Below, piece after piece: positions 9,438 to 59,143 of a stretch of 64,000 nucleotides of DNA. Position 1 is the first letter of the stretch. Each line of letters begins with the position of its first letter. The position numbers and the translations under genes are program-made. The notes under the pieces were generated by a model. It saw nothing but the letters and a program-made list of their open reading frames with translations, was not told the DNA's origin and ran no database searches. This stretch comes from Antedon mediterranea (lineage: Eukaryota; Echinodermata; Crinoidea; Comatulida; Antedonidae), in the NCBI RefSeq assembly GCF_964355755.1, contig NC_092679.1, positions 23,870,432 to 23,934,431 of the forward strand, read 5' to 3'.

Positions 9438-10114
9438 CTATAATTGGTCAGTTATTACCGTCGTTCCGTCTGGAGTTTGGTTATATATTGTTGATCTATA
9501 CGACGAAGGTAATGATTCCATAATACCATTAGTGTCATCGTGTATATGATTGTTATCTTCGTCTCGTTGCTTAAATTTATCACTGGCACGAAGCACCTGC
9601 TGTTTAAGTTTCTGAGAAAGATTTCCAAATGTTTTTGCATTTCTAGTTTCCATATCACCAATACCTTTCAAAGTTATCATTAAAATACTAAGACCAAATA
9701 TCAAGTAAACGACTGCCATGCACTTGTAGGTAGCTCTAATAACTACCGACATTTCAGGGTTGTTACATATTACATAATCACCAAATCCTATAGTGGTCAG
9801 TGAGATAAGACAGAAATACTGTGCTTCAAAGAACGTCCAGCCTTCTATCAGCATAAACAGTAATGAAGGAAGAATGATCGTAAGTGTATACATGAGGCAT
9901 CCTACTGCGAAATAGGCTGTGAATGTACGCGCACGATTGCTTGATACCACCAAAGAAAAGTTAGACACAATCAAATTGGTTAAACGTTTCCATTTCTCCA
10001 CAAAACACTTGCCAATGACGTTCAGTACCCATCCTGTCAGTGGTATTCCGATGAGGGCGTATAATATACAGAACATTCTGCCCCAAAGTGTTTTAGGAGA
10101 CAGGTTTCCATAAC
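9438..10114 (-). CDS. K2P channel exon 2 (filter 1 to C-terminus)
   Basis: Codes the end of the first filter (GYGN), TM2, TM3, the second pore with GFGDY, TM4 and the C-terminal tail. The frame is open upstream of the acceptor to an ATG at 10169, but those residues lie before the CTATAG acceptor and are intronic. The final residues TVITDQL do not form a clear class I PDZ ligand. Confidence 0.93.
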
Positions 10115-13100
10115 CTATAGCAACAAAATTAAACAAAATGTCTTTAATGAAAACTTCTCTAAAAACCACACCATTATTTATATACTTTTACTATACAAAC
10201 TCTGTCTACACTATCAAACTAGTTTGACTAAAAAAAGTGTGATGTGCCCAAATACGGTAGTGATATGACATCATCATGTCCATATATGGGCACCTCGCAT
10301 GTTTTTGTCACAAAAATTGATAGTGTAGACACGACATTAGAAATGAATAAGGTTAGCCTTTTGAAATGATTAGTTTCTTCGATTTGCCACAATTAAAAAA
10401 TATGCAGTATTTTCTCGAAAGGCTGAAATGTAATTTTGCACGTTTTTTTTTATTTAGAAAAAAAAATCGTAATTTAACATTAAAATGAATATAAACGGAT
10501 TGCAGGTAATAACGTAATTATTTGTTCCAAGATCAAATTCAGTGTAAGTTAAGTTTCACACATTTGAGTGACAGTTTTAAACAACATTTTAACATTTACA
10601 TATTTTTTTCAGAACTCTTACATTATCATTGTGTAATGTTTGTCAATAATTATATAACTAATACAGTTAAAACGATTCGTATCAAAAATTTATATCCCCG
10701 ATGTAAAACTGAGTTTTTTCATTTGTCCTTATGAATCAATTTTCAATTATTGCTAAGTGACTTGCATCAATGCTAATGTGACACTATATAGAAGCATGGT
10801 GTATATTACAATTTACGTTGTCATGTTCTATAATAAATGTAACTGGCATCAATAGTCTTGCAATTTGGCTATTAAATTAATCCAACATTCGCCTTATATT
10901 CAAATAACAGTAGAATAATTGAGAGGGAAAAGGATATAAAGTGAATCTTCTCATCTGCCTATTCAAATAAAATGTTTGAGATGTATTGTCTATCAAAAAC
11001 ATGAAAAATGAAGATTAATAAAAAAAGAATTTTAATTTGAATACCACCTACCATTTATTGTAAACATGTATTGGTCAACAAAGTATCTAAATTTTAAACA
11101 TATTTCACTATTTATCATCTTCTTAAAGTAATATATTTCTGGTTTTTATTGTTCTAATGATGTTAATAATAACTTCTTATTCTTCAATGTTTTGTAAGGG
11201 TCTCTGCTTAAAAGCTTTGTTTATGTTGAGTTCACTTTTCCATAACTGTTGATGACATCTTTGTATATCCTTATGTTGAAGTTTTATGGAATAACAATTT
11301 ATTTTGATTTGATTTAATTTGATGTTATATTAATGATTCATCAACATGATGAGGCCTATTACAGATTGTAGGCTGATAAAACATTCCTAATTATCCAAAT
11401 TAATTTCTTCTCTATTTACAATTTACATAAGAGAAATGCCAACTTGTTTTTGGAATGTTTCGTCATTATAGACATTCAGCAAATGATACGACTCGGAAGT
11501 TGTTTGCCGGCTTATTCATTAATTTAATGAAATTATTTTGATCATTGGTAAGTGCATCCCGTTATTATACAATTATTACTAATAATATATTTTCTACAAA
11601 TGATTACCGTTCATTCATAATGTCCAATACATCAGATAACCTATTGTACTTGAGTTATGTAAAGCTCTCTGCTCTCGTTTGACTGTAATACGACCGATAA
11701 AGAGAGGTTACATAAATTAATCAAAATTTCTAGGCGAACATTAATATTATAAGCGGCGTATGTTTTCATAATTATTGATTAGTTTAGCACTCATAATTCT
11801 ATTTCATTCATTCTAATGATATAGGTGACATGCGTTGCTTGCGTTTTCTAAATTGTTTTGTCTCAAGACTATAATGTATTAGACCTGCTGTAGACTATAA
11901 TGTATTAGACGGGTGTGTAGAAAGCGACGACCTCGAATTGGACGACCCCAACGACCCGGGCTACCTCGAATTGGACGACCTAGAATTGGACGACCCATAA
12001 CACGAAACCGACGACCCCTATAATAGCCTAGCCTAGCCTAGGCCTAAGTATGGTATAACATCCCGAAGCCGAACATAACCAAAGATCTTTAAACCATACC
12101 TTATATAATACTCGCAAGCAATCAATGGATTGAAAAAATACAGAAATATCGCCATTTGATACTGAATGTGTCGACACGAACAAACGAACAGATATGGAAC
12201 GCCAAGAGTGCATCATTAAAACTGCATTCGACTCGATTAGCACACGAAATATCATAAACATGGCAAACCAGGCCCCTTTTTTCAGCGGCAGGTAAGGTTT
12301 GACCATGGAGGTACTCCATGGTTTGACCAGCTCCATGGTTTGGTAAAAATATTTTTATACCTCCATGGTTTGACCGTATACAATGCATGTGTGAAATGTA
12401 AAGCTTTTTTATGGCCCTCCCCATGCAGGATTAGGCCAAGTTGAGCCGCCGACAAGTTGAGGCGCCGCCAGAAAAACGTTATTTTCTATGAAACGCCAAA
12501 TGCTTACTTTCGCCGGTGCTCGTTTCTATTTAATAGAAGTTCTATTTATATTAATTATTAGATATAACGATGTATATTCCAAAGTTTATATATCACGGTT
12601 TTTAGTATATATTATTAAATATTATAATTAAAGAGAAATAATTATGAATATCTGACTTGTAGATTCCAAAATATAAGGCCTAAAACATGACCGAAAATGA
12701 TCGTTTTTAGCCAAAAATGACGTAAACATGTTGCCCCCTCAGGCGGCAGTTGAAGTAAAATAATTGCATAAAATCACCGTTTTTTAGTAAAATATTTTGT
12801 GTATTAACATTGTAAAATTCAATAAAATATGATATTAAAAGATAGTAAATAAAAAATAATAATTATTTAACCTCATTCGAAGAATATCAATACTCTATTA
12901 GTCCTGAGAGACAACGTGATTTTACGTGGTAGGCATACACGCGAGAAAAATATTATGGAGTGCACTGCATTTTTACCTTGAAAGATTAAAAACAAATAAA
13001 TTATTAAATATGACTACTTTCCTTTGCTGTTTCAAACCAACAAAATTGTAGTATGTAATTATTATTTATTTTCATGACACAATAAACCTAAAGACCATGA

Positions 13101-16100
13101 ACTTATGTAGGGCCTACTAGGACACCACTCTATCACTACGCGAAATGTCGTAAAAGACGCACAGGCCGTTTCATAGAAATTACCGGCGGCTCAACTTGTC
13201 GGCGGCCCAACCGGTCATATCCCCATGCGGATGTTACGCTGCTTGGTAGGCCTATAGTGTTCGTTATAAGAAGACGAGATGTAATTATACGTCCATGGTT
13301 TAACCATGTATTGTATAATATTTATTTCTTTTTAATTTATTTTTAATATGTCGAATGCAGTTTTAATGATGCACTCTTGGCGTTCCATATCTTTTCGTTT
13401 GTTCGTGTCGACACAATCAGTATCAAATGGCGATATTTCTTTATTTTTTCAATCAATTGCTTGCTTGCGAGTATTATATAATAAGGTATAGTTTAAAGAT
13501 CTTTGGCTATTTTCGGCTTCGGGATGTTATACCACACTTAGGCCTAGGCTAGGCTAGGCTATAGGGGTCGTCGGTTTCGTGTTATGGGTCGTTCAATTCG
13601 AGGTCGTTCAATTCGAGGTCGCCTGGGTCGTTGGGGTCGTCCAATTCGAGGTCGTCGCTTTCTACACACCCTGTATTAGACCTGCTGTAGACTATAATGT
13701 ATTAGACCTGCTGTAGACTATAATGTATTAGACCTGCTGTAGACTATAATGTATTAGACCTGCTGTAGACTATAATGTATTAGACCTGCTGTAGACTATA
13801 ATGTATTAGACCTGCTGTAGACTAAAATGTATTAGACCTGCTGTAGACTATAATGTATTAGACCTGCTGTAGACTATAATGTATTAGACCTGCTGTAGAC
13901 TATAATGTATTAGACCTGCTGTAGACTATAATGTATTAGACCTGCTGTAGACTATAATGTATTAGACCTGCTGTAGACTATAATGTATTAGACCTGCTGT
14001 AGACTATAATGTATTAGACCTGCTGTAGACTATAATGTATTAGACCTGCTGTAGACTATAATGTATTAGACCTGCTGTAGACTATAATGTATTAGACCTG
14101 CTGTAGACTATAATGTATTAGACCTGCTGTAGACTATAATGTATTAGACCTGCTGTAGACTATAATGTATTAGACCTGCTGTAGACTATAATGTATTAGA
14201 CCTGCTGTAGACTATAATGTATTAGACCTGCTGTAGACTATAATGTATTAGACCTGCTGTAGACTATAATGTATTAGACCTGCTGTAGACTATAATGTAT
14301 TAGACCTGCTGTAGACTATACTGTATTAGACCTGCTGTAGACTATAATGTATTAGACCTGCTGTAGACTATAATGTATTAGACCTGCTGTAGACTATAAT
14401 GTATTAGACCTGCTGTAGACTATAATGTATTAGACCTGCTGTAGACTATAATGTATTAGACCTGCTATAGACTATAATGTATTAGACCTGCTATAGACTA
14501 TAATGTATTAGACCTGCTGTAGACTATAATGTATTAGACCTGCTGTAGACTATAATGTATTAGACCTGCTGTAGACTATAATGTATTAGACCTGCTGTAG
14601 ACTATAATGTATTAGACCTGCTGTAGACTATAATGTATTAGACCTGCTGTAGACTATAATGTATTAGACCTGCTGTAGACTATAATGTATTAGACCTGCT
14701 GTAGACTATAATGTATTAGACCTGCTGTAGACTATAATGTATTAGACCTGCTGTAGACTATAATGTATTAGACCTGCTGTAGACTATAATGTATTAGACC
14801 TGCTGTAGACTATAATGTATTAGACCTGCTGTAGACTATAATGTATTAGACCTGCTGTAGACTATAATGTATTAGACCTGCTGTAGACTATAATGTATTA
14901 GACCTGCTGTAGACTATAATGTATTAGACCTGCTGTATACTATAATGTATTAGACCTGCTGTATACTATAATGTATTAGACCTGCTGTAGACTATAATGT
15001 ATTAGACCTGCTGTAGACTATAATGTATTAGACCTGCTGTAGACTATAATGTATTAGACCTGCTGTATACTATAATGTATTAGACCTGCTGTAGACTATA
15101 ATGTATTAGACCTGCTGTAGACTATAATGTATTAGACCTGCTGTAGACTATAATGTATTAGACCTGCTGTATACTATAATGTATTAGACCTGCTGTAGAC
15201 TATAATGTATTAGACCTGCTGTAGACTATAATGTATTAGACCTGCTGTAGACTATAATGTATTAGACCTGCTGTAGACTATAATGTATTAGACCTGCTGT
15301 AGACTATAATGTATTAGACCTGCTATAGACTATAATGTATTAGACCTGCTGTAGACTATAATGTATTAGACCTGCTGTAGACTATAATGTATTAGACCTG
15401 CTGTAGACTATAATGTATTAGACCTGCTGTAGACTATAATGTATTAGACCAGCTGTAGACTATAATGTATTAGACCTGCTGTAGACTATAATGCATTAGA
15501 CCTGCTGTAGACTATAATGTATTAGACCAGCTGTAGACTATAATGTATTAGACCTGCTGTAGACTATAATGTATTAGACCTGCTGTAGACTATAATGTAT
15601 TAGACCTGCTGTAGACTATAATGTATTAGACCTGCTGTAGACTATAATGTATTAGACCTGCTGTAGACTATAATGTATTAGACCTGCTGTAGACTATAAT
15701 GTATTAGACCTGCTGTAGACTATAATGTATTAGACCTGCTGTAGACTATAATGTATTAGACCTGCTGTAGACTATAATGTATTAGACCTGCTGTAGACTA
15801 TAATGTATTAGACCTGCTGTAGACTATAATGTATTAGACCTGCTGTAGACTATAATGTATTAGACCTGCTGTAGACTATAATGTATTAGACCTGCTGTAG
15901 ACTATAATGTATTAGACCTGCTGTAGACTATAATGTATTAGACCTGCTGTAGACTATAATGTATTAGACCTGCTGTAGACTATAATGTATTAGACCTGCT
16001 GTAGACTATAATGTATTAGACCTGCTGTAGACTATAATGTATTAGACCTGCTGTAGACTATAATGTATTAGACCTGCTGTAGACTATAATGTATTAGACC

Positions 16101-19100
16101 TGCTGTAGACTATAATGTATTAGACCTGCTGTAGACTATAATGTATTAGACCTGCTGTAGACTATAATGTATTAGACCTGCTGTAGACTATAATGTATTA
16201 GACCTGCTGTAGACTATAATGTATTAGACCTGCTGTAGACTATAATGTATTAGACCTGCTGTAGACTATAATGTATTAGACCTGCTGTAGACTATAATGT
16301 ATTAGACCTGCTGTAGACTATAATGTATTAGACCTCCTGTAGACTATAATGTATTAGACCTGCTGTAGACTATAATGTATTAGACCTGCTGTATACTATA
16401 ATGTATTAGACCTGCTGTATACTATAATGTATTAGACCTGCTGTAGACTATAATGTATTAGACCTGCTGTAGACTATAATGTATTAGACCTGCTGTAGAC
16501 TATAATGTATTAGACCTGCTGTAGACTATACTGTATTAGACCTGCTGTAGACTATAATGTATTAGACCTGCTGTAGACTATAATGTATTAGACCTGCTAT
16601 AGACTATAATGTATTAGACCTGCTGTATACTATAATGTATTAGACCTGCTGTAGACTATAATGTATTAGACCTGCTATAGACTATAATGTATTAGACCTG
16701 CTGTAGACTATAATGTATTAGACCTGCTGTAGACTATAATGTATTAGACCTGCTATAGACTATAATGTATTAGACCTGCTGTAGACTATAATGTATTAGA
16801 CCTGCTGTAGACTATAATGTATTAGACCTGCTGTAGACTATAATGTATTAGACCTGCTGTAGACTATAATGTATTAGACCTGCTGTAGACTATAATGTAT
16901 TAGACCTGCTGTAGACTATAATGTATTAGACCTGCTGTAGACTATAATGTATTAGACCTGCTGTATACTATAATGTATTAGACCTGCTGTAGACTATAAT
17001 GTATTAGACCTGCTGTAGACTATAATGTATTAGACCTGCTGTAGACTATAATGTATTAGACCTGCTGTATACTATAATGTATTAGACCTGCTGTAGACTA
17101 TAATGTATTAGACCTGCTATAGACTATAATGTATTAGACCTGCTGTAGACTATAATGTATTAGACCTGCTGTAGACTATAATGTATTAGACCTGCTGTAG
17201 ACTATAATGTATTAGACCTGCTATAGACTATAATGTATTAGACCTGCTGTAGACTATAATGTATTAGACCTGCTGTAGACTATAATGTATTAGACCTGCT
17301 GTAGACTATAATGTATTAGACCTGCTGTAGACTATAATGTATTAGACCAGCTGTAGACTATAATGTATTAGACCTGCTGTAGACTATAATGCATTAGACC
17401 TGCTGTAGACTATAATGTATTAGACCAGCTGTAGACTATAATGTATTAGACCTGCTGTAGACTATAATGTATTAGACCTGCTGTAGACTATAATGTATTA
17501 GACCTGCTGTAGACTATAATGTATTAGACCTGCTGTAGACTATAATGTATTAGACCTGCTGTAGACTATAATGTATTAGACCTGCTGTAGACTATAATGT
17601 ATTAGACCTGCTGTAGACTATAATGTATTAGACCTGCTGTAGACTATAATGTATTAGACCTGCTGTAGACTATAATGTATTAGACCTGCTGTAGACTATA
17701 ATGTATTAGACCTGCTGTAGACTATAATGTATTAGACCTGCTGTAGACTATAATGTATTAGACCAGCTGTAGACTATAATGTATTAGACCTGCTGTAGAC
17801 TATAATGTATTAGACCTGCTGTAGACTATAATGTATTAGACCTGCTGTAGACTATAATGTATTAGACCTGCTGTAGACTATAATGTATTAGACCTGCTGT
17901 AGACTATAATGTATTAGACCTGCTGTAGACTATAATGTATTAGACCTGCTGTAGACTATAATGTATTAGACCTGCTGTAGACTATAATGTATTAGACCTG
18001 CTGTAGACTATAATGTATTAGACCTGCTGTAGACTATAATGTATTAGACCTGCTGTAGACTATAATGTATTAGACCTGCTGTAGACTATAATGTATTAGA
18101 CCTGCTGTAGACTATAATGTATTAGACCTGCTGTAGACTATAATGTATTAGACCTGCTGTAGACTATAATGTATTAGACCTGCTGTAGACTATAATGTAT
18201 TAGACCTGCTGTAGACTATAATGTATTAGACCTGCTGTAGACTATAATGTATTAGACCTCCTGTAGACTATAATGTATTAGACCTGCTGTAGACTATAAT
18301 GTATTAGACCTGCTGTAGACTATAATGTATTAGACCTGCTGTAGACTATAATGTATTAGACCTGCTGTAGACTATAATGTATTAGACCTGCTGTAGACTA
18401 TAATGTATTAGACCTGCTGTAGACTATAATGTATTAGACCTGCTGTAGACTATACTGTATTAGACCTGCTGTAGACTATAATGTATTAGACCTGCTGTAG
18501 ACTATAATGTATTAGACCTGCTGTAGACTATAATGTATTAGACCTGCTGTAGACTATAATGTATTAGACCTGCTGTAGACTATAATGTATTAGACCTGCT
18601 GTAGACTATAATGTATTAGACCTGCTGTAGACTATAATGTATTAGACCTGCTGTAGACTATAATGTATTAGACCTGCTGTAGACTATAATGTATTAGACC
18701 TGCTGTAGACTATAATGTATTAGACCTGCTGTAGACTATAATGTATTAGACCTGCTGTAGACTATAATGTATTAGACCTGCTGTAGACTATAATGTATTA
18801 GACCTGCTGTAGACTATAATGTATTAGACCTGCTGTAGACTATAATGTATTAGACCTGCTGTAGACTATAATGTATTAGACCTGCTGTAGACTATAATGT
18901 ATTAGACCTGCTGTAGACTATAATGTATTAGACCTGCTGTAGACTATAATGTATTAGACCTGCTGTAGACTATAATGTATTAGACCTGCTGTAGACTATA
19001 ATGTATTAGACCTGCTGTAGACTATAATGTATTAGACCTGCTGTAGACTATAATGTATTAGACCTGCTGTAGACTATAATGTATTAGACCTGCTGTAGAC

Positions 19101-22100
19101 TATAATGTATTAGACCTGCTGTAGACTATAATGTATTAGACCTGCTGTAGACTATAATGTATTAGACCTGCTGTAGACTATAATGTATTAGACCTGCTGT
19201 AGACTATAATGTATTAGACCTGCTGTAGACTATAATGTATTAGACCTGCTGTAGACTATAATGTATTAGACCTGCTGTAGACTATAATGTATTAGACCTG
19301 CTGTAGACTATAATGTATTAGACCTGCTGTAGACTATAATGTATTAGACCTGCTGTAGACTATAATGTATTAGACCTGCTGTAGACTATAATGTATTAGA
19401 CCTGCTGTAGACTATAATGTATTAGACCTGCTGTAGACTATAATGTATTAGACCTGCTGTAGACTATAATGTATTAGACCTGCTGTAGACTATAATGTAT
19501 TAGACCTGCTGTAGACTATAATGTATTAGACCTGCTGTAGACTATAATGTATTAGACCTGCTGTAGACTATAATGTATTAGACCTGCTGTAGACTATAAT
19601 GTATTAGACCTGCTGTAGACTATAATGTATTAGACCTGCTGTAGACTATAATGTATTAGACCTGCTGTAGACTATAATGTATTAGACCTGCTGTAGACTA
19701 TAATGTATTAGACCTGCTGTATACTATAATGTATTAGACCTGCTGTATACTATAATGTATTAGACCTGCTGTAGACTATAATGTATTAGACCTGCTGTAG
19801 ACTATAATGTATTAGACCTGCTGTAGACTATAATGTATTAGACCTGCTGTATACTATAATGTATTAGACCTGCTGTAGACTATAATGTATTAGACCTGCT
19901 GTAGACTATAATGTATTAGACCTGCTATAGACTATAATGTATTAGACCTGCTGTATACTATAATGTATTAGACCTGCTGTAGACTATAATGTATTAGACC
20001 TGCTATAGACTATAATGTATTAGACCTGCTGTAGACTATAATGTATTAGACCTGCTGTAGACTATAATGTATTAGACCTGCTATAGACTATAATGTATTA
20101 GACCTGCTGTAGACTATAATGTATTAGACCTGCTGTAGACTATAATGTATTAGACCTGCTGTAGACTATAATGTATTAGACCTGCTGTAGACTATAATGT
20201 ATTAGACCAGCTGTAGACTATAATGTATTAGACCTGCTGTAGACTATAATGTATTAGACCTGCTGTAGACTATAATGTATTAGACCAGCTGTAGACTATA
20301 ATGTATTAGACCTGCTGTAGACTATAATGTATTAGACCTGCTGTAGACTATAATGTATTAGACCTGCTGTAGACTATAATGTATTAGACCTGCTGTAGAC
20401 TATAATGTATTAGACCTGCTGTAGACTATAATGTATTAGACCTGCTGTAGACTATAATGTATTAGACCTGCTGTAGACTATAATGTATTAGACCTGCTGT
20501 AGACTATAATGTATTAGACCTGCTGTAGACTATAATGTATTAGACCTGCTGTAGACTATAATGTATTAGACCTGCTGTAGACTATAATGTATTAGACCAG
20601 CTGTAGACTATAATGTATTAGACCTGCTGTAGACTATAATGTATTAGACCTGCTGTAGACTATAATGTATTAGACCAGCTGTAGACTATAATGTATTAGA
20701 CCTGCTGTAGACTATAATGTATTAGACCTGCTGTAGACTATAATGTATTAGACCTGCTGTAGACTATAATGTATTAGACCTGCTGTATACTATAAAACAT
20801 TAGAATATTTATTACACGAGCACATTGTAAAGCAATGTTGTATCAACGAGGTTCACCTGGTGAAAATAAAAGATAAAGAAAATATAGAAATATTAAACTA
20901 AGGTATAATACCAGGGGCCCTATTTACCTGATAAATAATTAATTTGAAGAAAAATAGTACAGTCAGCCAAAAACTTGTTTATAAGACAAGATGTCTTGTA
21001 AAATGTTTTTTTTTTACTTTTTTAAAAGCGAAATCATTATTTTTGGTTATTTTTTTGTCGGTGAAATTGAATGACTTTAAATTGACTCAGCGTCAACGAA
21101 AGCCTCGTTTAGTATACTTTGAGGCAAAATTCAGAGCCTCATTTTGGCCTCGTTTGTAATCTACAATTTTCTAGACATCTTCTGTTCAAATTATTTCTTA
21201 AATGATACAATTTATCCTGGTTTATAACTTTTGAAATACAATAATTTTCTCAATCAGAAGAAGAAAAATTATTTTCATCTTCAATTTCACAACACAAGTT
21301 TGTGCTTTAAAAAAATATTTATTTAGTTTATATTCCTATCCTTAAAATCAATAATTAAAGTAGAAACTCACGGAAGAGGAATAATAATAATCTGCGTCTT
21401 TTAATTGATGCAAGGCATTAACAAAAGTCGAGTCATTTAGTTATCTATTATTAATATGTATTTGATGTATTACTGTATATTATTATTTTCTCGTAAATCC
21501 TCTTGATCGTTAACTATCATTGACCAAATCTAAACAGCAGCCTGGAGGCGGGTGATAAACATTGTGAATCGCTGAAAGGATCAGTTCTATAAATTGCCGT
21601 CCTACATCGTGTCATCTCCGCTTTGATTACGTGTTATCGAGTCGTTATGTGGAGGTTCTAAAACAGGCAGGGTATGAATCCGATAACAGGCAGGGTATGA
21701 ATCCGATAACAGGCAGGGTATGAATCCGATAACAGGCAGGGTATGAATCCGATAACAGGCAGGGTATGAATCCGATAACAGGCAGGGTATGAATCCGATA
21801 ACAGGCAGGGTATGAATCCGATAACAGGCAGGGTATGAATCCGATAACAGGCAGGGTATGAATCCGATACGAAGTTGGAAGAGGAGAATTTGCTCAGGGC
21901 TCACTTTTTCCTGATCGGCCACTTCTTTATTTCACTCATTATAATAAAGTTTGTGTAGTCAGTATAGTCAAATATTACTAATAATATTTTTTGTAAAATC
22001 TCTAAGCGCCTCCTAACCCAACACACTAACATTTCATCAATATTTGGTTCGTATATTTGAATAAATTTCAATGATCTAGTTGACAGATTTACTAGTTTTT

Positions 22101-22889
22101 AATGGGTACTGGAATATATCTTTGTTGAATGTACGTGTGCATGTTTAATTTTATAGCATGACATTAGGTAACAAATTTCCAGCCTATACTATTATCTCCA
22201 TAAAAAGCTAGGCGAGGAATGAGGCTGGTTGGATAATTTTACTTACTGAATACTACAGAGCTTTCTAACGACAACCAAAGAAATATTCTACACATCGTTA
22301 TGTAATCTTATGCTAAATATCATCTAATTTTCAATTTTATTTTATCAGAATTCTCTTCTATTGCTTACCTTTAAACCAAATTGTTTTGTTTTAGGTTTAC
22401 TACGAGACAAGTTCTTAATTGGCCTAAACTGTTTTATTGTTATTTGTTGCCATCGATGAAATAAATGAGATACTTTATAGCCACTATAGTCATTTGAAAT
22501 TCTAGATAGATATGCGAACATGAATATATGCAAATAACGAACAACTTACCAATAGTTGTAACGACCGTTGACGCAAAAAAGAACGAGTTAAATATATCCC
22601 ATTGCATATACTCGGATGGTGCCAGCTTGGAACTGTTTACATCTTTGTCATATTTTAAGTCATGGAAGACACCGTTCTCTGTCGCTGTAATCACTTCCTT
22701 TATCAATTCCTTCAACTCCCCACTTTCAATGCATGTGTGTGATTGCTTAAACTCGGTAAAAAAAGTCACCAAGTCATTTCGTACTTGTGTTTCATTGTCT
22801 GCTTCCAATAGATGAAACACAAGAGCTCCGAACCATAGATATAAAACAAAGCAAAATGTTAATATCAACAAACGTTTTAACAGCGTCAT
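9438..22889 (-). CDS. Two-pore-domain (K2P) potassium channel, complete, 338 aa, two coding exons
   Basis: Background potassium-selective leak channel of the plasma membrane. Exon 1 (22889-22550, 340 nt) starts at the first ATG after an in-frame TAA at 22925-22923 and ends TTACAACTATTG before GTAAGT. Exon 2 (10114-9438, 677 nt) starts after TTGTTGCTATAG and ends at TAG. The phase-1 join restores glycine 114. Layout: TM1 about 5-28; extracellular cap about 30-90 with Cys53 and N-glycosylation sequons NET (32) and NSS (85); first filter TTIGYG at 111-116; TM2 about 127-148; TM3 about 178-204; second filter TTIGFGDY at 220-227; TM4 about 246-267; and a 70-residue polar tail. GYGNLSPKT and EGWTFFEAQYF resemble the TALK/TASK-2 group (KCNK5/16/17), but orthology is not proven. 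The 12,435-nt intron (22549-10115) carries two minisatellites and nested transposons. Confidence 0.93.
10200..10332. mobile_element. MITE family 1, copy 2
   Basis: Starts CTCTGTCTACACTATCAAAC and ends ATTGATAGTGTAGACA, its inverse. The interior has GTGTGATGTGCCCAAATACG and CATCATCATGTCCATATATG. It lies within the K2P intron about 30 bases upstream of the exon 2 open frame. Confidence 0.8.
10333..11865. other. K2P intron sequence without recognised features
   Basis: AT-rich; no exon with matching splice sites on either strand and no clear repeat. Confidence 0.5.
11866..11910. repeat. Stranded left end of the 26-bp minisatellite
   Basis: About 1.7 monomers (ACTATAATGTATTAGAC, then CTGCTGTAGACTATAATG and so on) sit just left of the foldback element at 11911. 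The array then continues at 13672. This shows the transposon jumped into an existing array near its edge. Confidence 0.9.
11911..13671. mobile_element. Foldback transposon B, 1.76 kb, inserted in the minisatellite
   Basis: The ends are GGGTGTGTAGAAAGCGACGA and its reverse complement at 13652-13671. The arms run about 320 bp each (11911-12233 and 13349-13671) with high identity. They include three subterminal copies of CTCGAATTGGACGACC, a GCCTAGCCTAGGCCTAAG block and a TATGGAACGCCAAGAGTGCA block. The sequence TGTATTAGAC flanks both ends (11901-11910 and 13672-13681), consistent with a 9-10 bp target duplication. Because every monomer contains it, the exact length is uncertain. A TCCATGGTTTGACC motif repeats at 12303-12375 and near 13291. 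There is no transposase. The long arms and target size suggest Mutator-like or foldback type, which is inference. Confidence 0.85.
12427..13219. mobile_element. Element nested inside foldback transposon B, 793 bp
   Basis: Flanked by 9-bp direct repeats TCCCCATGC at 12418-12426 and 13220-13228. Near the ends, GTTGAGCCGCCGACAAGTTG (about 12440) is matched in reverse complement by the GGCGGCTCAACTTGTCGGCGG block at about 13185-13205, and TTCTATGAAACG (about 12483) by CGTTTCATAGAA (about 13168). The interior is AT-rich and non-coding. This is a second, later insertion into transposon B. Confidence 0.75.
13672..20794. repeat. 26-bp minisatellite array, about 274 copies
   Basis: The monomer contains CTGCTGTAGACTATAATG followed by TATTAGAC, with a strict 26-bp period over 7.1 kb. 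Most copies are identical. Single-base variants recur: CTGTATAC for CTGTAGAC, CTATAGAC, ACCAGCTG for ACCTGCTG, GCATTAG for GTATTAG, ACCTCCTG and TATACTG. Variants appear in the same order in separate blocks. For example, adjacent CTGTATAC pairs occur near 14935, 16391 and 19722, and ACCAGCTG pairs three monomers apart occur near 15450, 17347, 20207 and 20595. That points to block-scale amplification. The whole array lies inside the K2P intron. Confidence 0.98.
20795..21661. other. K2P intron sequence between the two minisatellites
   Basis: AT-rich with no supported exon. The 71-codon open frame at 20944-21159 has no start context, splice sites or family motif. Confidence 0.5.
21662..21868. 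repeat. 23-bp minisatellite, nine copies
   Basis: Unit AACAGGCAGGGTATGAATCC plus GAT, repeated nine times with essentially no divergence. The minus strand is open across the array and gives a 23-residue protein repeat. This is expected for any stop-free 23-bp unit read in three frames and is not evidence of coding. Confidence 0.97.
21869..22549. other. K2P intron sequence next to exon 1
   Basis: No recognised element. It ends at the exon 1 donor, 22549-22544 on the minus strand. Confidence 0.5.
22550..22889 (-). CDS. K2P channel exon 1 (TM1, cap and start of filter 1)
   Basis: Codes residues 1-113 plus the first base of Gly114. The donor ATTG|GTAAGT is strong. The open frame continues past the donor, but the read-through sequence has no channel features. 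The hydrophobic run LLILTFCFVLYLWFGALVF is TM1. The stretch from STVVTTI to the exon end is the rising half of the first pore loop. Confidence 0.92.
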
Positions 22890-36469: not shown

Positions 36470-37316
36470 TATGGAACGCCGTTTACGCAACATTTCGATG
36501 ATATGAATTTTATGACGCGATATGTGAATGAAATGCATCGATATGAATTGAATGGCGTGATATATGAATGAAATGTTTTGAATTGAATGCTTTGAATTGA
36601 ATGTTTTGAATGAAATGTTTTGAATGAAATGTTTTGAATTGAATGTTTTGAATAAAATGTTTTGAATGAAATGTTTTGAATGAAATGTTTTGAATTAAAT
36701 GTTTTGAATGAAATGTTTGAATTGAATTGAAAAGTCAAACTATTGGCGGCGTATGTCATTCCCGCTCGCGATTTTTTTTCAACCTCTTAATAGGCCTAAG
36801 CATGGGTACCCTCATCTCCTTTCAACGCTGTCATCAATATGAATCCTTTACAGAGACTCCCTAACAGACCTGAAACATTGGAATACATATTTCCGAACCC
36901 AGGTCTGTTAGGATTCTCTGTAAAGGCAGCGTGGAAGAAAGGAGATGAGGGTACCCAGGCTTAGGCTTAAGAGGTTGAGAAAATAATCGCGAGCGAGAAT
37001 GACATACGCCACCAATAGTTTGACTTTTCAATTCAATTCAAACATTTCATTCAAAACATTTCATTCAAAACATTTCATTTAAAACATTTCATTCAAAACA
37101 TTTCATTCAAAACATTTCATTCAAAACATTTCATTCAAAACATTTCATTCAAAACATTTCATTCAAAACATTTCATTCAAAATATTCAATTCAAAGCATT
37201 CAATTCAAAACATTTCATTCATATATCGCACCATTTAATTCATATCGATGCATTTCATTCACATATCGCGTAATAAAATTCATATCATCGAAATGTTGCG
37301 TAAACGGCGTTCCATA
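36470..37316. mobile_element. Foldback transposon C, 847 bp, with minisatellite arms
   Basis: The ends are TATGGAACGCCGTTTACGC and its reverse complement. TGGCTT flanks both sides (36464-36469 and 37317-37322), a candidate target duplication. Each arm contains a 13-14 bp tandem motif (GAATGAAATGTTTT on the left, AAAACATTTCATTC on the right), then GTATGTCATTC...CTCGCGAT and GGGTACCCTCATCTCCTTTC with their inverses. The loop is at about 36873-36900. The tandem section is longer in the right arm. A minus-strand open frame (36469-36759) only reflects the repeat. Confidence 0.88.
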
Positions 37317-48692: not shown

Positions 48693-51600
48693 TCAATTAA
48701 TTGCTTCAAGCTCCACCTCAAATGTTAGCCTAGAATTAGGCGGGATCCTGGAAACTTCAATTAAGGAAATCAATAATAAAAAAATATATATATAAAAAAA
48801 GGTTTCTCCTGCATTAGTATTCTAACAAGTTTTGGTTCAAGGTTCTAGCAAGAATTTGACTTAATATTAGTAAAAAAATAATATTTGGCAAAAATGGCGT
48901 TTCATACATAATACTTGAGCTGGAATTGCAATGCTGCCCAACATAAGAGAGACTTAGGCAAGTCAAATCATATAAAACCGTTTGGGGGCATTATTTCCCT
49001 ATGCTATAATACACAGTGCCTTCTTGTGTTGCAACAAGGCTAATTATTCATGGCGTTTTCAAAATTTCAATAGAAAATAATTTTAAAATAATTAAAATAT
49101 TAAAAAATAATTTATAAAAATGTTATTATTTTATTAATATTACTGTATTATTCATTGTTACTAAGTTTATTCAAAAAAATATTACAAGGCTAAATTAAAA
49201 CAATATTTAAAAAAAAATTTACGAAAAAGTAGAGTTTAGTCCCACAGGGCACGGAAAATGATAGTTTGGCCTTGTGCCAACCACCAGTATTACTTGCACT
49301 CACTAGGGTAAGTTTCAATTGTAGGTAACACGCCCTTTATTTACCTAAGTTTTCAGGCTATAACAACAAAATTGGCAATTATGGGATTTCACAAGAAAAT
49401 CAAATATGCATTATACAGTACAGAATAATTTGCAAAAATAATTTAAAAGAAGAACATTTGTTACAAATTAATTGATAGAATCAAAAAGGATACTTTCCTT
49501 CAATTCCCTTGGCACCGTACGCCCACTCTGGTTCAATCACAATCTCTGCTCGCTCACGGATTCCCATCGTTAACAACGCTTCATCCCACTATTAAAAAAA
49601 AACATTTCAACTAATTAATTGAATCATTCTCAGGAATAATAATAATATTTTGCTCTTCCCAATGATCTAAAATCCATCAATAATCAATATATTTTTAACA
49701 TTAAACTAAAAAGTATCTCATCTTTGATATTCCTATCTGATTTTATATATTGCGGTTTTATGATATTGTTGCTCTTTACTTTATATTACCTTTTTTACAT
49801 TTTATATGTCATTTTTTATTATATCTTTCACATTTCCATATGTCCTTCTTATGATCCTTGTTCACTTTCAAATCTCAGATTTCTTTTGCAATGGATTCCA
49901 TTGGAAATAAATTGACATGTCGATTTTGTCCTTGCATCCATTCACTTTGGTTTCATTCAATTTTAATATTCCAATTGTTGTATTTTTTCTTTGTTATGTA
50001 TTTTAAATGTATTAATTGTCCCAATTCACAAGAGTGGTCCCAAAAAACTAATCTGTAACTATCGTCCTATTTCGTTATTGCCTACTATGTCTAAGATTTT
50101 TGAGCGCATTGTGCATGATGGTTTGTCATCACATGTTGCTAATGCTTTAAGTCCTAGGCAGCATGGTTTTGTCTCTGGGAGATCATGTCAAACCAACCTC
50201 GCACTGCTTCTTGCTACATCATACGATGCAATTAACAGCAAGAAGCAGTGCGATGTGATTTACACTGATTTCTCTAAGGCTTTTGATTCCGTTTCCCATG
50301 ATTTGCTTATTTTTAAACTTTCAAAATTTGGTTTATCCGGTTCACTGTTAAGTTGGTTTAAAAGCTATTTAACTAATAGACAACAGCGTGTTGTCATTGG
50401 GGGAGAGACATCTGATTGGCTCCCTGTGTTATCGGGCGTTCCGCAGGGCTCGATCCTGGGCCCGCTTTTGTTTAATTTATTTATCAACGATCTTCCTTTA
50501 AAATTTAATCATTCCGAGTCTCTTTTATTTGCTGACGATCTGAAATTGTTTAAAGTGATTACCACTCCACAGGATGCTTTTTCACTTCAGGAGGATCTGG
50601 ATGGTCTCGTGGAATGGACGGAGAAGTGGGGGATAAAACTTAATGCTAATAAATGCAAATATTTATCTATAACACTTAAAAAAAGGCCTGTGCTCTTCAA
50701 TTATAATCTGAGTGGACATGATCTTGAGATGGTTTATGTATGGAAAGATTTAGGTATTTTTATTGATAGTAAATTAAATTTTTGTTCACATATTAATCAT
50801 GTGTTGTCAAAAGCTAATAGAATGATGGGCTTAATATGGAGAAATTGTAGGTTTATGAACGACGGCAGGGCACTTTTATCTTTATACAAATCTATTATAC
50901 GTCCTCACCTTGAATATTGTTCCGCAATTTTCAATTCAATTTCTCCATGTCAGGCCCGTCGAATCGACACTGTTCAACGGAAGTTTGTTCGATTCCTGTC
51001 TTATAACTGTGTTAATTTTGCCTTTTCCATTGATTCTGTCAGCAATCGTCGAACGATATCTGATATGGTTTTTTTATATAATATTTTAAATTCTAAATAT
51101 GACTGTTCATTAATTTCACTATTTAGTTTAAATGTTCCTGGTCGTACACGAAATAGACATTTATTGCATATTCCTTTTAGCCGTGTCGACTGTACTAAGA
51201 GGGGACTTTTTCATAGACTACCTTATACATTTAATAATCTAAATAGCAATCATATCGATATTTTTAATGATAGACTTGGTTATTTTAAGAGGACGATGAT
51301 GTGTTCACTTCTTGAACAGTCTGCATAACCTGTTTTAATTGAAATTTTTTATGGCATGCCAATCTATGTTTTCTATATATATATATATATATATTTTATC
51401 TGTATTTTATTGTTAACCGTTTTTGATGTTGTATTGTTTTATGTTTCAAACCTGTTAGTGGCGGTATTTATCGCTGTTGGTTTTGATTGAATAAAATAAA
51501 AAATAAAATAAAAATAAAAAGTATTGTTGAATGGATGCTAAATGAATAAATAAATAAATAAAAAGAATGAATGCAAAAACTCACCCCACGAATGACTTTT

Positions 51601-53553: not shown

Positions 53554-54847
53554 GCTTCTTTTTTTAGAGAATGTTTAGTCTAGACGTGTTGTAGCTGTTT
53601 ATTGACAATTACGTGAACTTGATGTATGCGATGCTTGTTTATAAAACGCTTCTACGGCTGTGTGTGATAGGCTATAAAGTTTTGGGGTGAGTAAATAATT
53701 ACAAACGAACATATATTAAATACCCTGGATACAAACAACTTCCGGTATGACATTTCACTCTTTTTTGTTAGGTTTGTTTACATGTTTTGCTATATGATAA
53801 GCAAGTTATGCAAAATATCGTTTCTTTTAATAATGGCAAAGTATAATGATCAGGTTTTTCTACTAGACCTAGGCCTAGGCTAGGCTATTAATTATTATTG
53901 TATGCATGATGACGTTTTAGGCCAAGCTAGCCTAGTAGCTAGCCTAGCCTAGCCTAATAGGGCCCTAGCTAGTAGGCCTAGGCTAGTTAGTACAGCCAGC
54001 CGGGAAGCCTAGCCCTCCCTAGCTAGGCCTAGCTAGTAGCTAGGCCTACTAGCCTAGGCTAGACCTACTAGGCCTACTACTACTACTAGCCCTACTAGGC
54101 TATAGGCCTAGTAGTACTATTAGTAGGCTGGCGCACCCTGCTGGCCTATATTGTAGTGTAGAGTAGTACTACTAGTAGTAGGCTAGTCTAGGCCCTCTCT
54201 TCTACATGCTGAAGAAGGGCTAGCTAGGATAGGAAGGAGGCCTAGCCTATGACCTAACTAGGTCTATACTAGGCCTAGAGTAGTACTACTACTAAGTAAG
54301 CCTATTTATTAGTAGTATTAATTACTCCGCTAGGCTATAGAGACTAGGCTAGGCCAGGTCAGGAGAGAGCCTTCTTTTCTAGCTAGAGTAGATAGGGCCT
54401 AGCTAGGCTAGATAAATTAGATTAGAGTCTACTACTACAGGCCTACTTATATATAGGTCTGGTGTGCCTGGCTAGGCTAGGTCTGTTCTCTTTTCTAGGT
54501 ACATGCATACTACTATATTATTATTATATTTATCCAGCTTCCCAGACCGTTGACAGATGCTGCAGTCCTAGATAGAAAGCCCATCAGCTTTCATTAGAAA
54601 ACTTCATATTCATTTTTTTGTCTTTTATGACGTGTAAACTGACTTTGGGGTTGGGTCAACCGGCTCAGCTACAGTGATTAAGTTCACTTAGGTTGACCCT
54701 CGTCTACCCAATTTCATTTTTTTAAATATGTATAGGCCTATACTCAAATAGACCGAATAAATAATGAAATGAAATTAAATCCATGCCTTAGAATAATTAG
54801 TATAATTTTTTGTTTTTTTCAGCCACTGAATTCAAGATAAAAACACA
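53554..54847. promoter_or_regulatory. Shared head-to-head region between FKBP3 and AIDA
   Basis: The two start codons face away from each other, 1.3 kb apart. AIDA's start lies in an exon that opens at 54823 after TTTTTTTCAG, so a non-coding first exon must lie upstream. A strong donor-like GGG|GTGAGTAA at 53687, about 130 bases from the FKBP3 ATG, would put that exon next to FKBP3 and imply a bidirectional promoter. The first-exon placement is inference. Confidence 0.5.
53862..54500. repeat. CTAG/AGGCCT-rich low-complexity tract
   Basis: Dense overlapping copies of CTAG, TAGGCCTA, GCTAGGCTAG and CCTAGGCCTAG, mixed with ACTACTACTAG runs. The same short palindromes are sparse on either side. 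No period holds for long, so this is not a simple tandem array. If AIDA exon 1 ends at 53686, the tract lies in AIDA's first intron. Confidence 0.85.
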
Positions 54848-57800
54848 ATGTCTGATATTAGTAAATTAATATCAAATTGGAATGCATCTTTTACAAAAGG
54901 AACTGATTTTGATAGTTGGGGACAGGTAGTAGAGGCTGTGGATGAATATGACATGTTGGTATCATTTTATCTGTATATTTTCATTGTTAAAGCTTGGTTC
55001 ACACAACACAAGCAAGTTGATCAGGACTGTTCTATTACTTGAGATTGGACAAATCACTTTTCGCGTTTTTGATTATTTTGTATGTTTATGATTTTGTGAA
55101 TGGAAATAAAAAGAAAGAAAGAAAGTTTAATAATGAAGCCTAGGCATAGAGGACACCATATTGTGTTTCTCTTTTGAAATGTTTAACACAATTTCTTTAT
55201 TATTTAATCATTTTGTTCTTTATTTGTTTAGGCTTTCAAAACAATTACTCAAAGAAGCATCTCCAGATTCTATAATCTTTTCAGAAAAGCAAAAGGTTAG
55301 TTAGTGTAACTGTACACCTTGTTAATTGTGTGTATATTACTTTGGTTTAGATCAAAGCACACCCGCTGTTAATAATCAGTAGGTCTAGTATATAACTTCA
55401 CAAATACTTATCAATGTCAATGTGCTTTGTATATGGAGTTATTGTATATGAATAAATCAGTTGTAGCAAATGTAATCTCAGAATTCACTAAGATTCATAA
55501 ACTCTTGTTGAAAACTCTCTAATTCTGTATATTCTCTCTTTTTTTTTCGTTCAATAGAAAACTTTACTCAAAATATCTGGAAGTTTGAAATTACGTAAGG
55601 AAGCTATTAATGTAAGAATTTGATTTATTTCGATACCATAAAGGATCTTGTCAAAGGTCAAGCGCCTTCAGCCTGCCACGTTTCGATACCATACAGGAAG
55701 AACATACTCAAACAAAACCAAACAAAAACCACATTTGCATGGTTTCATGAATAGCCTAAATTCTTACATCACAGGTTCCTAACTAAGGGAGTGGAGCTGT
55801 AACATGCTTTCCTTCCAATCCCAAGTTCCATGGTTGAATCCTGACGTACTTCCAATCCTGACCTAGTGCCAGGGTTGTAACTTATGACTCTTTTAACTCC
55901 ACTCCCGAACCCTCTATTGAGTCTTGGTTTATAAGCATGTTGAATTATACAAATAGTTTATCCATCCTGTAATTGGCGAGTTACTCACTTTTAGATGCAT
56001 ACAAAAGGTTTTTGAAACAATCTAACAATTTTTTTTTTCTGGTATAAGGAATAATTTCTTTTTCTTTTTCAAGAATCCAAACAGTGCTAATGGAATATCA
56101 CTGGAGGATATGAAAAAAGTCCAAAAAAGTATGTATTGTCTATATTTAAACTGTTTTAAATAATTTTTTCTTATCCACACATACATAGTTTATACTGATG
56201 TTTTTTGGTTATAGCTCTTGCAGATATTATGTCAAGCAATCAGAAGGAATTTCCAATCCATGTACCTGCATCTACTACAAGGTAGAGTACTGTAATAATA
56301 GGTACTTTCCAATTTGTACCAGTCGACTACGACCCATGTGGACGTGAACTTCGCGCACGTTCACACAAAAGTCCCTATTGTCATTACAACTACTCCTCTC
56401 ATCATTAAATTACACTCTGTTATTATCAATGATGATAATAATAAGCACACCACTAATATCATACCACGCATAGATAAATCTAGGGTAATAGTTGGAGAGA
56501 GTGCACTCGTCCCATGGCTCCATACATTTTAAAGTTAAGTTTAGCACTTAATTTTACCCCCACCCCCACAATTACTGTTACAAAATCTTGATTACACCTC
56601 TGCCACCATCATTTATACTGTACATTATTGTTACCATCAATGCTATTGTATGCAAATATTATTCAATATATGTGCAGCTAAAAATACTAAGTAAGTAAGT
56701 ATAGCATAAAGGCCAATTTACACAGACGAGTGGTAACGGTAATAAAATCTATTTTATTCCTTATGACCATTTACACAAAACATAGAGAGAAGACGGACAG
56801 TTGCCGCTCAGGATAGATACAGATTCTACGTGGGACAAGCTACGCTGTTTTCCATTTACCGTTACAGCTCGTCTGTGTAAATTATTGCAAGAATTCTCTT
56901 CCAATTTTCATAGATGTTATCTTATCATTGTAGACCACCAAAAGTGAAAAAAGGATTTGATCTCGAGTTGGATGACAGCGAAAATGAAGATGAGGAATTT
57001 GAAGATGAGGATGACGACGAGGATGAACATCATCACAAATCTTCAATTTCAAAAACTGGCGGTGAAGGCACGCTTAAAGGTAACAAAGCTCAACATCTAG
57101 TTGGTTGCCACGGTGTAATAGTTCACACTGGTCTAGCCATGTATAAAACATACAGGACATAAAGCAACCCGCATATCAAACTTACCTAATTTACATGTGA
57201 ATGTCGAGTCAGTGACCGAGCGGTTAAGACAGGGTACTGCAATCGACAGCCATAATATCGGCACAGGTTCAAGGCTCTCAATGATCATAGTTCTTGTAGT
57301 ACAAGATAAGAAAAGTAAAAACTAGAGGTCCAGTGTAAGGATCTGGCTTGTGTACACTTAAAAAACCTAGTGCATCTTTTAGAAAAATCATGGTGGTGGG
57401 AGGATGGGTCAGTGGCCTGCCCTGGTCTTCTGGTCTATTTCAGTCGTTATCACTTCTTGGGGGTAACACATCGTGTTGTTGGAATTATTTTGTTGCCTCA
57501 AGAGAGACTATGATATTTCCCAATGGATGAAAGGAACTAATGACATGTGAATTGATGATATCTTTTCTCAATTTGATTTCCTTACACAGGATCTTTGCTA
57601 CGGATGATTCCTCCTGAAGCAGGTGCAACAAGGCTGACGGTGGCAATTGATAAAATTGGTTTTAAAGATGCTTTAGTTTACATAGATCCTTTTATTGTCA
57701 TTTCAGTTAAAGGTAATTTCTTATACTACTTTTTTTGTTTTTCCTTTGTATTCCCTCACAGCCTTTTATCATTTCTTCGGAATTTTAATCATATATCATT

Positions 57801-59143
57801 GAATTAAATTTTATTTCAATATATATCTTTCTTTGAAACAGAAATTACTGATTTTGTTCATTCTCTTTTTTGTGTTTTATTTTTCACTTGTTATGTTTAA
57901 AGACATAAAAAGAAAATCAATTAAAATCCTTTTTTTATAAAAAAATCTTACAATAATGAATAAATGTTTCGCAAGTACACAAAGTTTTGATACAGTTTTT
58001 AATCATTAACTCTTCCATACTGTAGATGTCAGTGGTGTAGCTGTGACTGCCGTCCAATCTACTCCAACATCAATTAAAAAAGAGGATCCTTACGTATTAT
58101 TTGGAGTTGATGTGGAAATTCAAAAATATATAGAAAAACTACCAAAAGGTATTATTATTATTATTTATTGCCAAAAACCAGTTACAAACAAACAAAACAC
58201 AGAAACTAAGGGAGTAGGCAGGAACCTAAAAGTGAACCTAATCACTATAACAAGAGTTCAGGTTCCGTACTCCCAAAGTAACAACAATTGTTTGATTGGC
58301 AATGGTAATGATTGTTGGCAATCTTGGTGGCAACAACTATGCCTGTTTTATGATAGGAGAAATTATTTGTGCGAATCCAACATTTTGCAAAGATGCTCAT
58401 GATTGTGTGACAATTCATTTCTGAGCTCTGATTGGTTGCGCAAATTTTCGCTTTGCTTTCTTAAAATTTAACGTTAAGAGTAGGTTCTTTTAAGATTAAA
58501 CTAATTAATTTTTTCAATCTTGAAAATGTTTGCAGTTAAGTTTTTGTAGAGACAACTAGCATATGTGTTTGGTTCTTCTTTATTTGCCTGTCTGTTTTCT
58601 ATTGGCAGAAATCTTGAATAAGCTAATAACATTTACATTTTATTTTATTTTGCAGGCTCAGCAATATTCTTTGAATTTAAACATTACAAGCCAAAGAAGC
58701 GCATTACAAGTACAAAATGTTTTGCTTTTCTTGAGATGGATGAGATTAAGGAGGGACCAATGGTAGTGGAATTGTAAGTTAAATTCATGTACCCCATTTA
58801 AACTAAACGAGTGTTATTGTGTTTTGTTTCTTTTTTTTTATATTTTTTAAATTCTTGTACATAATTTTGTGGCACTGTGGCTTGGTGGTTGACATGCTTG
58901 CTTAGCAATCCCATGGTCCAAATCTTGGAACTGTTCACTTCTATCTTAGCCTTGTATGAAACTGGAGAGCATTTTGGAAAGCATGGGTTTCCCATCCTGT
59001 AGTTGGCATATGCTATATTTGCTGAATACTCTATATTTCTTTTCAGATACAAAAAACCAACAGATTACAAAAGAAAGAAATTAAACCTTTTGACAAACAA
59101 GCCATTATATCTTCATCTATTCCTAACGTTACACACCGATTGA
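54848..59143 (+). CDS. AIDA: AIDA (axin interactor, dorsalization associated), complete, 317 aa, ten coding exons
   Basis: In vertebrates AIDA binds Axin, restrains JNK signalling and affects dorsoventral patterning; its C2 domain binds lipid membranes. Coding exons: 54848-54954, 55232-55295, 55558-55611, 56074-56128, 56215-56281, 56934-57079, 57590-57712, 58026-58148, 58656-58773 and 59047-59143. They total 954 nt and join in frame. Residues 1-115 are the N-terminal helical domain (GTDFDSWGQVVEAVDEYDML). Residues 125-150 are a highly acidic linker (NEDEEFEDEDDDEDEHHH), longer than in the human protein. Residues 166-317 are the Aida-type C2 domain: IDKIGFKDALVYIDPFIVIS, YVLFGVDVEIQKYIEKL, AIFFEFKHYKPKKRITSTKC, FLEMDEIKEGP, ELYKKPTDYKRKKLNLLT and KPLYLHL. 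The human protein is about 306 aa. The first donor (CAT|GTTGGT) is weak; it was chosen because only it keeps the frame and the EYDMLSKQL alignment. A MITE starts about 15 bases past the stop. Confidence 0.95.
56715..56883. mobile_element. MITE family 3, single copy, 169 bp
   Basis: In an AIDA intron (56282-56933). Perfect 16-bp ends AATTTACACAGACGAG and CTCGTCTGTGTAAATT, then inner inverted TGGTAACGGTAA and TTTACCGTTAC. Confidence 0.85.
57208..57278 (+). pseudogene. Degenerate tRNA-Ser/Leu-like sequence
   Basis: In an AIDA intron. GTGACCGAGCGGTTAAGACA matches the D-arm style of class II tRNAs, and CAGGTTCAAGGCTCT resembles a B box. Stems do not close, so this is a tRNA-derived SINE or pseudogene remnant. 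Confidence 0.4.

Follow-up and report, generated by a model that had tools for sequence, protein, structure and literature searches.

A 26-bp minisatellite, split near one edge by a young foldback element, in the pore-motif intron of a predicted K2P channel gene of Antedon mediterranea

How does a tandem array of 7 kb come to lie in the intron of a channel gene, and does it do anything there? The start of an intronic array is hard to see once the array has become large, and a young transposon near its edge is a possible time marker. Both occur in the window, by which we mean the whole 64,000-nucleotide stretch of the Antedon mediterranea genome that was analysed. A sequence-only reading of this DNA had described about 274 nearly identical 26-bp monomers, ending at position 20794, in the only coding intron of a two-pore potassium (K2P) channel gene. 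We consider it probable that this array is a recent intronic minisatellite that has grown partly by blocks and has no dedicated function. What distinguishes it is the young transposon that divides it near one edge, which may help to time its growth.

What kind of gene carries the array? Two coding exons are predicted on the minus strand. Exon 1 (22550..22889, Met to TTIG) ends at the donor TTG/GTAAGT, exon 2 (9438..10114, YGNL to stop) follows the acceptor GCTATAG/GTTATGG, and between them lies a 12,435-bp GT-AG intron of phase 1 (10115..22549), 57% of which is main array. TTGCTATAG directly precedes exon 2, which opens with the remainder of a Gly codon followed by YGNL; the intron interrupts the first pore motif of the channel. 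The joined protein of 338 amino acids matches Pfam Ion_trans_2 in two stretches (1.2e-32), and its best solved relative is a KCNK2 channel (2.5e-42). With two pore loops and similarity to solved K2P channels, the host is, judged by its predicted protein, a TREK/TWIK-like K2P gene, and its pore-motif intron is probably old and tolerant of changes in size. In the same genome, nine of ten paralogous matches to the first exon end at that same intron site, residue 115-116, while the tenth continues to residue 132, and neighbouring paralogue exon pairs, paired by position, lie ~0.3 to ~12 kb apart. Their shared site and variable spacing indicate that the two exons form one gene of conserved structure whose intron tolerates size changes. 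We take the pore-motif intron site to be widely conserved among K2P genes, a view that the paralogues alone support here; a literature search on this intron returned, among the matches listed, none bearing on it by title.

The placement of the array in an intron of a K2P gene is thus borne out by the exons, the GT-AG boundaries, the phase and the Pfam match of the joined protein. Between the Met at 22889 and the stop, the reading frame contains no second coding intron, though there may be another exon farther upstream. It had also been supposed that each channel pre-mRNA must carry the array; from the gene structure, and with an intron position that recurs in paralogues, a full-length pre-mRNA would indeed do so. 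The same intron holds a second minisatellite of other sequence, nine perfect 23-bp copies at 21662..21869, which is itself confined to one locus (nine matches in the genome with 2 mismatches allowed). Twenty of the 28 K2P-like matches in the genome lie on the window's own contig. Farther along the window, at 54842-58180 on the plus strand, are candidate exons of Aida (axin interactor), with matches to Aida_N and Aida_C2, one of the two C2 pieces falling under the curated cut-off.

How uniform is the array? Tandem Repeats Finder (TRF) reports period 26, 274.0 copies, 98% matches, 0% indels and a score of 13,954 at 13672-20795, one base beyond the end first given for it, and cutting this stretch every 26 bases yields 274 monomers, each exactly 26 bp long and arranged head to tail. 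The count of near-identical monomers therefore stands. As many as 232 of the 274 are identical to the consensus TGTATTAGACCTGCTGTAGACTATAA and the remaining 42 carry one substitution each; these substitutions are of seven kinds, present in 14, 11, 9, 3, 2, 2 and 1 copies, and runs of 48 and of 30 identical monomers occur. Such an array is far beyond chance. A minisatellite is a homogeneous head-to-tail array with a unit of 10-100 bp; given its unit size and its homogeneity with signs of exchange, the K2P array is a minisatellite of the ordinary kind.

The variants also record how the array grew. Their order recurs at an offset of 73 monomers (~1.9 kb), the best ungapped self-match (score 27.4), and again at 128 monomers (~3.3 kb, score 26.7); no score above 16.0 arose in 200 shuffles of the variant order. 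Blocks of tens of monomers are duplicated inside the array, and these two self-matches point to growth partly via large blocks, beyond single-unit slippage. The array length is that of one assembly, and its variation between individuals, which the sequence-only reading thought likely, is a prediction. Long perfect tandem arrays can be mis-assembled, which could make the copy number an artefact. We think this very improbable: the variant pattern is irregular and the block copies are unlike in detail, whereas exact repeats should result from simple looping.

Does the monomer occur elsewhere? A search of the 354-Mb assembly with up to 3 mismatches found 274 forward and 0 reverse matches (the first 100 were listed, and all are at this locus), and backwards control patterns of the monomer found 0. 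The forward scan of the window likewise gave 274 matches, from 11879 to 20748. Since the genome count equals the window count, the array is confined to a single locus within the limits of this search, and the search of the genome that the sequence-only reading had suggested adds nothing beyond the window. A satellite DNA family, with its monomer at many loci, was considered for the array and rejected on the same counts.

The earlier description did miss one part of the array. Its main part begins at 13672 as described, yet a left remnant of 45 bp, or 1.7 monomers, lies at 11866..11910, beyond a 1,761-bp element, and matches the right-hand part over all 45 bp at 100% (blastn). The intervening sequence (11911..13671) is a putative non-autonomous MULE-like foldback element, recognised by its inverted arms, its dispersed family and its target-site duplications. 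Its left terminal inverted repeat of ~322 bp (11911..12232, plus strand) is 95-96% complementary to the right one (13350..13671, minus strand) and contains 15-bp subterminal repeats at 11926-11995; the longest stop-free frame of the element is at most 108 amino acids. The 10-bp target-site duplication TGTATTAGAC abuts both ends, its left copy at 11901..11910 and its right copy at 13672..13681, within the first monomer of the main array. As TGTATTAGAC is itself monomer sequence, an array or a seed of one was already present when the element arrived. The reverse possibility, that the array is part of the element, was rejected: at up to 3 mismatches the monomer is found nowhere else, so other copies of the element lack it.

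The element belongs to a young, dispersed family. Searching with 516 bp of its left end brought up 236 candidates; 40 were scored, most of them spanning the whole query. Two truncated matches were omitted and 38 copies were read. In six of the 38 only one end could be recognised, and these are excluded from the duplication and flank counts. Among the 32 two-ended copies, with the end pair of fewest duplication mismatches taken where several were possible, the 10-bp duplication is perfect in 28, has one mismatch in one and has no match in register in three, one of which (L030) looks like a 9-bp duplication. A duplication within the 8-10 bp range (PMC5225508) is thus combined with long terminal inverted repeats, and these two features, together with the 15-bp repeats inside the ends, are consistent with foldback elements of the MULE type (PMC5225508, PMC3169594). 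A MULE transposase is a candidate for the enzyme that moves the element; the genome contains 36 MULE-domain matches. The window copy differs from its two nearest relatives at 5 of 1,756 and 5 of 1,741 aligned bases, and only three substitutions are private to it, absent from the other 31 aligned copies, which argues that the insertion is young. The earlier view that so homogeneous an array reflects recent expansion or exchange is supported by the 232 identical monomers, the block duplications and this young insertion.

Two other structures of the window may be mentioned beside this element. A second foldback structure at 36470-37316 has arms of ~260 nt that are 95% complementary, each with 14-bp tandem repeats, and an open frame at 49967-51325 on the plus strand contains a predicted reverse transcriptase domain (RVT_1, 1e-35).

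How unusual is such an array in this genome, and did the element bring it about? Twenty 4-kb control pieces at round coordinates contain 33 arrays with a unit of at least 10 bp, which together cover 8,186 of 80,000 bases; two of the pieces have arrays of 1 kb or more. Similarly, in forty 1-kb pieces placed by a seeded random generator, 4,517 of 40,000 bases lie in arrays (1,000 of the 40,000 being N), and two pieces are array almost throughout. An array of at least 500 bp is present in 4 of these 60 pieces, which represent arbitrary genome positions rather than introns and, at 1-4 kb, are too short to hold a 7-kb array. Long tandem arrays are therefore common in the genome, contrary to the rarity that the first description implied, even though none of those sampled is known to reach 7 kb; the longest of them (L057), at least 4 kb, has a unit match of 83% and is far less homogeneous than the K2P array. 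Apart from its split by a transposon, the K2P array is one of many.

Against this background, a role of the element in starting the expansion can be weighed. The 322-bp inverted arms could stall replication or break, and repair could then amplify the adjacent seed; consistent with this, the element adjoins the array, its arms are 95-96% complementary, and a young insertion is found next to a homogeneous array. Yet the flanks of the 32 copies, the window's included, contain 24 arrays in 58,186 bp, or 4.12 per 10 kb, against 4.13 in the 4-kb controls, and show no enrichment. These flanks are uneven, those of L001-L007 reaching only ~260-290 bp, with L004, L005 and L007 likewise on one side. Copies lying within arrays number three of 32 (L001, L015 and L019), about as array coverage predicts. 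Within this sample, the element shows neither a preference for arrays nor a tendency to create them, and we regard a trigger by the element as improbable.

Did the array grow before or after the insertion? Had the array already numbered 276 monomers, a hit within 1.9 monomers of either edge would have had a probability of ~1.4% (the checked distance is 1.7 monomers), and on this ground we favour a short seed at the time of insertion and later growth on the right. This order is less sure than the core explanation, that of a recent minisatellite: the left part could have shrunk, and a left part once long and then lost is the main alternative to a short seed. Three insertions of the family into arrays are known, moreover, and one near-edge case among three carries less weight than the single-case 1.4%. 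A related reading is that the array was already long and the element happened to land by its left edge, with growth unrelated in time. In a genome with ~10-11% of sampled bases in tandem arrays, and with copies of the element, the window's included, inside arrays at about the chance expectation, this is a real if somewhat doubtful prospect; the same small chance of a landing so near the edge stands against it.

The age of the array bears on both readings. The three private changes in the 1,761 bp of the element would predict ~12 in the 7,124 bp of the array, where seven kinds of substitution are found in 42 copies. With counts this small, the variety of the array is compatible with an array older than the insertion but does not by itself demand one; if many of the 42 variants arose independently, the array could predate the insertion. 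It is quite possible, though we hold this with less than even confidence, that the locus preserves the datable birth of a variable-number tandem repeat (VNTR), in which a very young foldback insertion tagged a seed of two or three 26-bp copies, and one side alone then became about a hundredfold larger, partly by blocks. If so, seed, marker and expanded array are still legible at one place in a channel gene.

Could the array serve the gene? It might regulate splicing or transcription of the K2P gene, a role that has been proposed for the VNTR of human CACNA1C, which likewise lies in an ion-channel intron and is similar in unit and length (PMC13131567). On the sense strand, each consensus monomer contains AG followed directly by GT, and the array contains 272 copies of AATACA. 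On a rough matrix, the consensus acceptor scores 0.8, a value exceeded by only 22 of the 1,059 AG sites of the intron, and one variant monomer offers acceptors of 2.8 and 2.5, near the real acceptor at 3.1. The monomer donor scores only -3.0 on this matrix, against 4.1 for the real donor, and decoy or recursive splice sites in each monomer were rejected on the joint scores. Structure in the array RNA was rejected as well: ten monomers fold less well than 200 of 200 shuffles (z = +4). The array is single-locus and homogeneous, and within this one genome it carries no sign of selection. An effect of the array on the channel is possible, and we consider a function in splicing or transcription quite unlikely. 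Separately, at 20842-20872 on the minus strand, the sequence that immediately precedes the array in the sense direction contains TTTTATTTTCACCAG, which scores highest on the same rough matrix among the acceptors of the intron and runs directly into a good donor, GTGAAC. This site is ratchet-like and may be due to chance.

We propose the following course of events for a recent minisatellite grown partly by blocks. A seed of few 26-bp copies would have lain in the old, size-tolerant pore-motif intron of the K2P gene, where a MULE-like foldback element hit it ~1.7 monomers in from the left edge. Expansion to 274 copies would then have followed in the right-hand part, partly by block duplication through unequal exchange or replication-based copying, and exchange would hold the array homogeneous. 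No dedicated function is apparent; at most, the intron would be longer by 7 kb.

Finally, how does the locus compare with known systems? Long inverted repeats are common to the window element, Muta1 of Aedes (PMC5225508) and Tm1 of root-knot nematodes (PMC3169594). Target-site duplications are 8-9 bp in Muta1 and 9 bp in Tm1, whereas those of the window family are mostly 10 bp and its mobilising enzyme is only putatively of the MULE type; like Muta1, the window family has numerous non-autonomous copies and short tandem repeats in subterminal position (PMC5225508). For the array, the closest parallel is TRACT, an intronic VNTR of human CACNA1C with a 30-bp unit, whose length alleles have been associated with gene expression (PMC13131567). 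TRACT and the K2P array share an ion-channel intron, a unit of ~30 bp, kilobase length, and a main unit with one-base variants and perfect tracts (PMC13131567). They differ in that the K2P unit is 26 bp and apparently of other sequence, and in that the host is a predicted two-pore potassium channel. With minisatellites in general the K2P array shares its unit size, its homogeneity and its signs of block duplication; unlike them, it is broken near one edge by a transposable element.
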